64,000 nucleotides of DNA from assembly GCF_006335115.1 (NCBI RefSeq), contig NZ_VDMJ01000008.1, positions 1 through 64,000 on the forward strand. Reading direction: 5' to 3'. Made by a program: the position numbers and the translations under genes. Below, piece by piece: positions 39,145 through 41,595 of this stretch. This DNA comes from Streptomyces sp. NP160 (GTDB lineage: Bacteria; Actinomycetota; Actinomycetes; Actinomycetales; Quadrisphaeraceae). The stretch's first letter is position 1; each line of letters starts with the position of its first letter. The notes beneath the pieces are model-generated. The model saw only the letters and a program-made list of their open reading frames with translations, had not been told where the DNA came from and ran no database searches.

Positions 39145-39459
39145 TCAGTGGACGAGCTTGAGGCCGACCACGCCGCCGACGATCATCGTCAGGAACACCA
39201 CCTTGGGCACCGACACCGGCTCGGTGCCGGTCACCATCGCGTACGCCACGGTGAGGGTCGCGCCGATGCCCACCCACACCGCGTACGACGTGCCCACGGG
39301 GAGCTCGCGCATGGCGTACGCGAGCCCGGCCATGCTCGCGAGGATCGCGACGGCGAAGACCACGGTCGGGCCGGGGCGGGTGAAGCCCTCGGAGCGGCCC
39401 AGGGCGGTGGCCCAGACGGCCTCCAGCACACCGGACAGGACGAGCACGAGCCAGGACAC
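39145..39459 (-). CDS. Small multidrug resistance family guanidinium exporter (Gdx/SugE type)
   Basis: 104 aa, GTG start at 39459 behind CTGGAGG. Four membrane helices. The Gdx subtype is indicated by Glu13 with Trp16 (SGVLEAVWATAL), by GFTRPGPT in loop 1, by the helix-3 segment LPVGTSYAVWVGIGAT and by the ending VGLKLVH. Gdx proteins export guanidinium in exchange for protons as antiparallel dimers. A guanidine-III riboswitch lies 30 bases upstream (39490-39532), which strongly supports guanidinium as substrate. It has no adjacent SMR partner, so it should be a homodimer. It is divergent from the GDP-mannose dehydratase gene. Confidence 0.93.
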   Translation of the reverse strand: MSWLVLVLSGVLEAVWATALGRSEGFTRPGPTVVFAVAILASMAGLAYAMRELPVGTSYAVWVGIGATLTVAYAMVTGTEPVSVPKVVFLTMIVGGVVGLKLVH

Positions 39460-39489
39460 GACGGGCCTCCAGGGTCGAGGGAGCAGGAG

Positions 39490-39532
39490 CACGGCCGTCT
39501 TGTCGCTGTCCGGGTACGGCGCCCTCGTCCGG
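39490..39532 (-). promoter_or_regulatory. Guanidine-III (ykkC-III) riboswitch
   Basis: On the minus strand the region reads CCGGACGAGGGCGCCG, then TACCCGGACAG, then CGACAAGACGGCC. It matches the class-III guanidine aptamer, for example the characterised Thermobifida fusca RNA, in its key blocks: CCGGACGAGG, GCGCCGUACCCGG and ACAAGACGGC. The blocks allow stem 1 (CCGG with CCGG), stem 2 (GCCGU with ACGGC) and the pseudoknot. It ends about 20 bases before the CTGGAGG ribosome-binding site of the Gdx exporter, so control is probably translational: guanidine binding frees the site. Confidence 0.85.
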
Positions 39533-39603
39533 GGACCCGGTCGGGGCCCGCCCACAGGGTGGCACAGGAGAGCACTGCGAGGACGACGACGCGGGCCGTC
39601 CCC

Positions 39604-39609
39604 TAGGGT
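39604..39609 (+). promoter_or_regulatory. -10 box TAGGGT of gmd
   Basis: TAGGGT ends seven bases before the ATG at 39617, the exact distance for a transcript that starts on the A of the start codon. It lies within a CCCTAGGG palindrome. Confidence 0.55.
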
Positions 39610-39616
39610 CGCCCCC

Positions 39617-40602
<986 letters not shown>

Positions 40603-40606
<4 letters not shown>

Positions 40607-41595
40607 CCGCCGACCAGGCCGTGACGGGTCGCACCGCGCTGGTCACCGGCGTCACCGGGCAGGACGGCGGCTACCTCGCCGAGCTGCTCGCCGCCGAGGG
40701 CACCCTCGTGCACGGCGTGCGCCGCGGCACCGGCCCGCTGCCCTACCACCTGGCAGCGCTGGGCGACCGGCTCGTCGTCCACACCGCCGACCTGCTCGAC
40801 CCCAGCGCCGCGGCCGCGCTGGTGCGCGAGGTCCGCCCCGACGAGGTCTACAACCTCGCCGCCGAGAGCTCCGTCGCGCGCTCGTGGGAGGAGCCCGTCG
40901 AGACGGCGCTGCTCGACGCGGTCCTGCCGGCCGCGATCCTGCACGCGGCAGCGAGCACCACCGGCACCGGCGGCGGTCCGGTCCGCGTGCTGCAGGCCTC
41001 CAGCGCCGAGGTGTTCGCCGGCGCCGGCGTGACCCCCCAGGACGAGACGACGCCCGTCGTCCCCGTCACCCCGTACGGGGCGGCGAAGGCGTACGCGCAC
41101 CACCTGGTGCAGCTGCACCGCGCCGGCGGCGCCTTCGCGGTCAACGCGGTGCTGTACCCGCACGAGTCGCCGCGCCGCCCGGCGCGCTTCGTGACGCGCA
41201 AGATCACGTCCACGGTGGCGGCGATCGCCCGTGGCCGCGCCGACGAGCTGGTGCTCGGCAACACCGCCGCCCGCCGCGACTGGGGCTGGGCCCCTGACAC
41301 CGTGCGCGCGCTCGTCGCAGCCCTGCGGCACGACGAGCCGCTCGACGTGGTGGTGGCCACCGGCACGTCGCACTCCGTGGAGGACTTCGTGGCGGCCGCC
41401 TTCGCCCGCGCCGGGGTCGCCGAGTGGCGCCACCTCGTGCGCACCGACCCGGCGTTCGTGCGCCCCAACGACGCCGCCGACCTCGTCGGCGACCCGCGCC
41501 TTGCGCGCGAGGTGCTCGGGTGGACCCCGACGCGCTCCTTCGCCGACGTGGTCGGCGCCATGGTCGACGCCGACCTGGCCGCCCTCGACGCCTGA
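40603..41595 (+). CDS. Second GDP-mannose 4,6-dehydratase-like protein
   Basis: 330 aa. The GTG at 40603 overlaps the upstream gmd stop (GTGA). It is a diverged tandem copy of the same fold: LVTGVTGQDGGYLAELLAAEG, LQASSAEVFAG, YGAAKAYAHH and YPHESPRRPARFVTRKITSTVA. It keeps the GMD signature rather than that of the 4-reductases (RMD/GMER), so it looks like a second dehydratase or a diverged member of unknown specificity. Relative to gmd it has several substitutions around the sugar-binding loop. The two proteins may form a heteromer. Confidence 0.85.

Follow-up and report, generated by a model that had tools for sequence, protein, structure and literature searches.

The minus-strand leader upstream of a small transporter gene raises the question of whether the gene is under riboswitch control and, if so, which ligand is sensed, what the transporter exports and how binding would be passed on to expression. 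The initial annotation had placed a Guanidine-III riboswitch directly upstream of a Gdx-type exporter. An Rfam covariance search (guanidine-III/ykkC-III) of the window, i.e. the whole analysed stretch of 64,000 nucleotides, gave a significant match to RF01763 on the minus strand at 39552-39488, with a score of 54.9 bits against a gathering threshold of 36 and covering model positions 1-67 of 67. The E-value was 1.3e-8 over the 64 kb window and 2.2e-10 for the local kilobase. This was the sole Rfam match over threshold in the window, and a scan with permissive E-values returned only chance matches besides RF01763. A single Guanidine-III copy was found by covariance search in the 4.77 Mb genome. 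Minus-strand positions 39552-39488 were thereby confirmed as a full-length Guanidine-III aptamer. The three sequence blocks quoted earlier from the leader, CCGGACGAGG (39532-39523), GCGCCGUACCCGG (39522-39510) and ACAAGACGGC (39503-39494), were all found exactly on the minus strand. The leader 39490-39532 had thus been correctly identified as an aptamer, but its extent was drawn too short and the 5' hairpin was missed. The parts of the aptamer are as follows.

39488..39552, minus strand: Guanidine-III (ykkC-III) riboswitch aptamer, whole element including the 5' hairpin (Rfam RF01763)
39535..39547, minus strand: 5' accessory hairpin of the aptamer model, GCCC-CGACC-GGGU (cmscan alignment)
39510..39532, minus strand: pseudoknot helix, CCGG 39532-39529 with CCGG 39513-39510 (sequence)
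39491..39522, minus strand: P1 helix, 39522-39516 with 39498-39491, one bulged C at 39494 (cmscan alignment and covariation)

In the crystal structure of the Thermobifida fusca aptamer, guanidinium contacts the Hoogsteen edges of G7 and G17 as well as the 2'-OH of the C6 ribose, and it stacks on C6 (PMC5696562). By match to T. fusca, the equivalents of these bases are present on the minus strand at 39527 (C6), 39526 (G7) and 39517 (G17), and all ligand-contact bases and invariant columns were retained when compared with an alignment of 40 aptamers. The matched segment has a G+C content of 78%, and a GC-rich sequence mimicking the aptamer by chance was therefore considered. The E-value over the window, the single match in the genome and the presence of the aptamer at the orthologous site next to gmd in three other members of the genus make the probability of such mimicry practically negligible. 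The bulged C in P1, together with a linker longer than in most relatives, could also point to an aptamer that is only Guanidine-III-like, with a changed ligand or a lost function. This was judged extremely unlikely in view of the retained ligand-contact bases and invariant columns, the Gdx-type nature of the adjoining gene and a score equal to that of the genus relatives (54.8-55.8 bits).

The P1 and pseudoknot pairs were scored for covariation in the 40 aligned aptamers from relatives, and the result was compared with shuffled and slid versions. In total 99.2% of cells were paired, and 37 cells had changed on both sides against a shuffled mean of 7.2. The covariation score was 0.341 versus 0.079 for shuffled versions and 0.002-0.111 for slid versions, and none of 500 shuffles reached the score. 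Of the four pairs of the pseudoknot, the outer one alternates between C-G, G-C and U-A among the relatives; the other three show no variation and are therefore uninformative with regard to covariation.

The transporter gene and its ribosome binding site are located immediately downstream, with 28 nt between the aptamer and the start of the gene.

39145..39459, minus strand: gdx/sugE-type SMR transporter gene, 104 aa, GTG start (PF00893, 79.3 bits)
39466..39470, minus strand: Shine-Dalgarno sequence GGAGG, 6 nt before the GTG start (sequence)

The transporter had been described as otherwise anonymous. This description does not hold, as Pfam and NCBIfam place the gene in the SMR family with SugE as the best NCBIfam model. 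Glu13, Trp16 and a GFTR motif had been put forward as hallmarks of guanidinium exporters; all are present, with GFTR at residues 25-28, but EmrE aligns with both GFTR and the central Glu, and these two features alone are therefore no mark of a guanidinium exporter. Trp16 appears to be the more telling residue. The closest PDB sequence is Gdx-Clo (6wk5), with 79.8 bits, an E-value of 1.5e-21 and 41 of 104 residues identical. Residues E13, W16, S42, Y59 and W62 and the Gly-Ile-Gly hinge (Gly64-Ile-Gly66), whose roles have been described (PMC9574504), are retained relative to Gdx-Clo. A multidrug pump of the Qac/EmrE type, and no guanidinium exporter, would be the other reading of the gene; SMR subtypes share about 40% identity with each other (PMC7695847), and the SugE score of 95.8 bits lies below the curated cut-off of 126. 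Such a pump is nevertheless very unlikely, since EmrE scored only 32-38 bits, the Qac models reached at most 52.7 bits, W16 and S42 are retained and the gene is riboswitch-linked. By these comparisons the protein is closer to Gdx/SugE than to Qac/EmrE, with a SugE score under the curated cut-off, and guanidinium/H+ antiport is its predicted activity.

The reading frame of the exporter is open through the whole riboswitch leader, giving a 181-aa ORF from a TTG at 39690 (39145-39690, minus strand). The start conserved in relatives is 39459, and the longer frame is therefore likely a by-product of high G+C content. A second SMR locus, a tandem pair, is present in the same genome on contig C115 (28119-28705; L056 and L057). 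The first match of the pair spans one in-frame TAG, and no Rfam riboswitch was found at this pair.

Guanidine-III was found over the cut-off in 25 of 59 related genomes, and the next gene after the aptamer was an SMR gene in all 25 loci examined, which include the window's own genome; some of the loci carry a tandem SMR pair. In the sample of the class, 169 of 395 genomes had a Guanidine-III match over the cut-off. Within the genus, riboswitch and SMR gene are both present in four genomes and both absent in two. Guanidine-III has been described as a largely actinobacterial riboswitch associated with efflux genes (PMC12186494), and the linkage observed here is therefore the expected picture. 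The covariance match, the ligand-contact bases, the Gdx-like transporter and the conserved SMR linkage agree in supporting a riboswitch directly upstream of a Gdx-type exporter, as the initial annotation had it.

The locus is best read, with a probability of about 0.88, as a gene for a Gdx-type guanidinium/H+ antiporter whose 5' leader carries a Guanidine-III riboswitch acting as a translational ON switch by strand exchange; the identity of the ligand, the direction of the switch and the activity of the transporter are predictions here. Rising guanidinium would bind between the Hoogsteen edges of G7 (39526) and G17 (39517) and stabilize the H-type pseudoknot and P1. In the ligand-free state the aptamer would give up the 3' strand of P1, which would then pair with the stretch immediately preceding and spanning the start codon, while a CUCC in the linker would mask the Shine-Dalgarno sequence, resulting in low translation. 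With ligand bound, the P1 strand would be withdrawn, the ribosome binding site exposed and the exporter turned on. Translational control had earlier been suggested from the short spacing to the ribosome binding site; it fits the anatomy of the leader and agrees with earlier work on the class, which proposes that guanidine makes the ribosome binding site accessible (PMC5696562, PMC12186494).

The hairpin proposed for the state without ligand is the following.

39455..39504, minus strand: proposed OFF-state hairpin (expression platform), covering the Shine-Dalgarno sequence and the GUG start (unconstrained MFE and class-wide support)

In this hairpin GACA.A.GACGG (39504-39495) pairs with CCGUC.G.UGUC (39464-39455), which contains the GUG start, and the linker CUCC (39489-39486) pairs with GGAG of the Shine-Dalgarno sequence (39470-39467). 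The linker from the conserved GAC to the start is 37 nt long, compared to 17-22 nt typical of the order. The unconstrained MFE of the 103-nt leader, which contains the OFF-state hairpin, was -48.2 kcal/mol versus -40.0 kcal/mol with P1 forced, the latter value leaving out the ligand and the pseudoknot helix (about -4.9). The local hairpin of this leader was not beyond shuffles (z of -0.74). When 40 nt of coding sequence were included and the aptamer was forced, Shine-Dalgarno exposure went from 0.21 to 0.21 and the opening energy from 8.7 to 8.4. For this leader strand exchange is proposed as the best-supported candidate mechanism.

The SMR-linked leaders of 117-118 relatives were searched for a competitor of P1. 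A candidate was found in the start region, where the stretch immediately preceding and spanning the start codon is complementary to the P1 3' strand (GACGG, with GACAA in front of it). Of 118 SMR-linked leaders, 63 had GUC immediately before the start, compared to 13 of 207 candidate starts with a Shine-Dalgarno sequence in the window. The duplex energy between the P1 3' strand and the pre-start bases of its own leader was -7.0 kcal/mol, compared to -5.8 (sd 0.2) for shuffled sequences and -6.64 (sd 0.16) for swapped leaders, of which 47 in 5000 were at least as low. Positional pairing between the P1 3' strand and the start region was 0.647 versus 0.616 (sd 0.009), a value reached by none of 1000 permutations, and kinship among the leaders inflates these permutation tests of start-region pairing. 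Local folds of the 118 leaders had a mean z of -1.44, and forcing the aptamer lowered the opening energy from Shine-Dalgarno to start from 10.2 to 7.3 kcal/mol, with a decrease in 93 of 118 leaders. The mean unpaired probability of the Shine-Dalgarno sequence across relatives did not rise with the aptamer (0.47 free, 0.40 bound). In the relatives' leaders, P1 and the start region had no more exact complements of five and six bases than under permutation, and extension of the helix beyond GAC/GUC in the GUC-ending subset of leaders did not exceed permutation either; the platform claim therefore rests on the energy and positional tests. The predicted re-pairing of the P1 strand with the start region is statistically supported across the 117-118 relatives. 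A more general proposal, given even odds, is that actinobacterial Guanidine-III has a conserved strand-exchange platform, in which the near-invariant GACAAGAC would pair around the start codon and make the coding start (GUC-AUG-UC or GUC-GUG-UC) part of the switch, with the inserted linker adding an anti-Shine-Dalgarno element in this genus.

Further upstream, a putative promoter element and the divergent neighbour were noted.

39556..39566, minus strand: putative extended -10 element, TGTGCCACCCT (positioned by analogy with relatives; weak match)
39617..40606, plus strand: gmd-family gene (GDP-mannose 4,6-dehydratase), divergent neighbour outside the switch (PF16363, 403.6 bits)

A scan of the locus for the sigma-70 consensus and for terminators found nothing. 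In the relatives, TANNNT occurred at -45..-22 from the CGGACGA core in 50 of 117 leaders, compared to 4 of 117 at -75..-52, and this -10-like element was mostly located 28-37 nt before the core. From this position the mRNA would start at the aptamer, and transcription here would begin near 39549, at the 5' end of the aptamer. Such a start is also what an effect on mRNA stability would predict, where the liganded pseudoknot at the extreme 5' end blocks RNase E scanning and translation is secondary. The Guanidine-III aptamer reportedly blocks RNase E scanning (Richards and Belasco 2021, as cited in PMC12186494). However, complementarity to the start region is conserved, which points to a translational component, and mRNA stability as the primary effect is considered possible but rather unlikely. 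Translational control by strand exchange is the preferred reading.

The aptamer had also been placed within the promoter zone of the divergent gmd gene. It is indeed located in the 157-nt gap to gmd, whose ATG is at 39617 on the plus strand; the gmd promoter, however, is putative, and there is no sign of gmd being under the control of the riboswitch. The divergent gmd neighbour is common to all four riboswitch-bearing genomes of the genus (the window's and three others). A riboswitch shared with gmd was set aside, as gmd is on the opposite strand and was a neighbour in this genus only. Two related gmd-like genes are found in tandem at 39617-41595 on the plus strand, scoring 402 and 257 bits against TIGR01472, whose cut-off of 415 neither reaches.

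Outside the window, Guanidine-III was also observed before other genes. In six genomes from five families a match over the cut-off was located directly upstream of a gene for a membrane protein of about 85 aa of the CBU_0592 family (NF047864). The loci are L064 (G174), L087 (G275), L121 (G264), L045/L158 (G140, frame interrupted), L145/L155 (G168) and L164 (G141). All six riboswitch-linked proteins have a GFLLLEGxW motif, which recalls the E-x-x-W of Gdx. The Glu of this motif is missing in four family members with no riboswitch nearby (L146-L149), and some Glu-bearing members are likewise found without a riboswitch. The SMR gene is absent from four of the six genomes. A literature search on CBU_0592 found no paper. 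The CBU_0592-family protein is a candidate for a new guanidine-linked membrane protein, and this arrangement looks more interesting and unusual than the element of the window. In one family (f22) Guanidine-III precedes a gene of the arginase/agmatinase family in place of an exporter gene (L027, L031, L033, L035, L036, L043 and L108); the product is plausibly a guanidine hydrolase. In a further genome (G340), which has three Guanidine-III matches, one match of 47 bits (L135) lies upstream of a gene that by eye resembles a hydrolase of the metallo-beta-lactamase fold; a scan of the fragment of this gene gave no Pfam match.

Compared with known systems, the element resembles Guanidine-III (RF01763) and the T. 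fusca aptamer (5NWQ) in its full-length match, H-type pseudoknot, P1 and C6/G7/G17 pocket, and like members of RF01763 it is located just upstream of the ribosome binding site of an SMR gene. It differs by the one bulged C in P1. In contrast to most aptamers of the order, its linker between aptamer and start is 15-20 nt longer and carries the CUCC able to pair with the Shine-Dalgarno sequence. The exporter shares with Gdx-Clo the residues and hinge named above, and differs in TM3, where positions 63, 70 and 74 are V, T and A as opposed to T, A and G; V, T and A are also found in most relatives examined. The functional mechanism of Guanidine-III has been called "less well established" (Huang et al. 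2017, PMC5696562), and the comparison of leaders offers the class a concrete candidate for its expression platform that can be put to the test. For one SMR gene the element gives a firm functional prediction, namely guanidine-inducible guanidinium export. Gene type, riboswitch class and order of parts are those of the riboswitch-controlled sugE/gdx genes of Actinobacteria (PMC12186494, PMC7695847), from which the locus differs in nothing of substance, the divergent gmd neighbour having been observed in this genus only. The element of the window is a well-supported instance of a known and common actinobacterial arrangement, and as such of little surprise.
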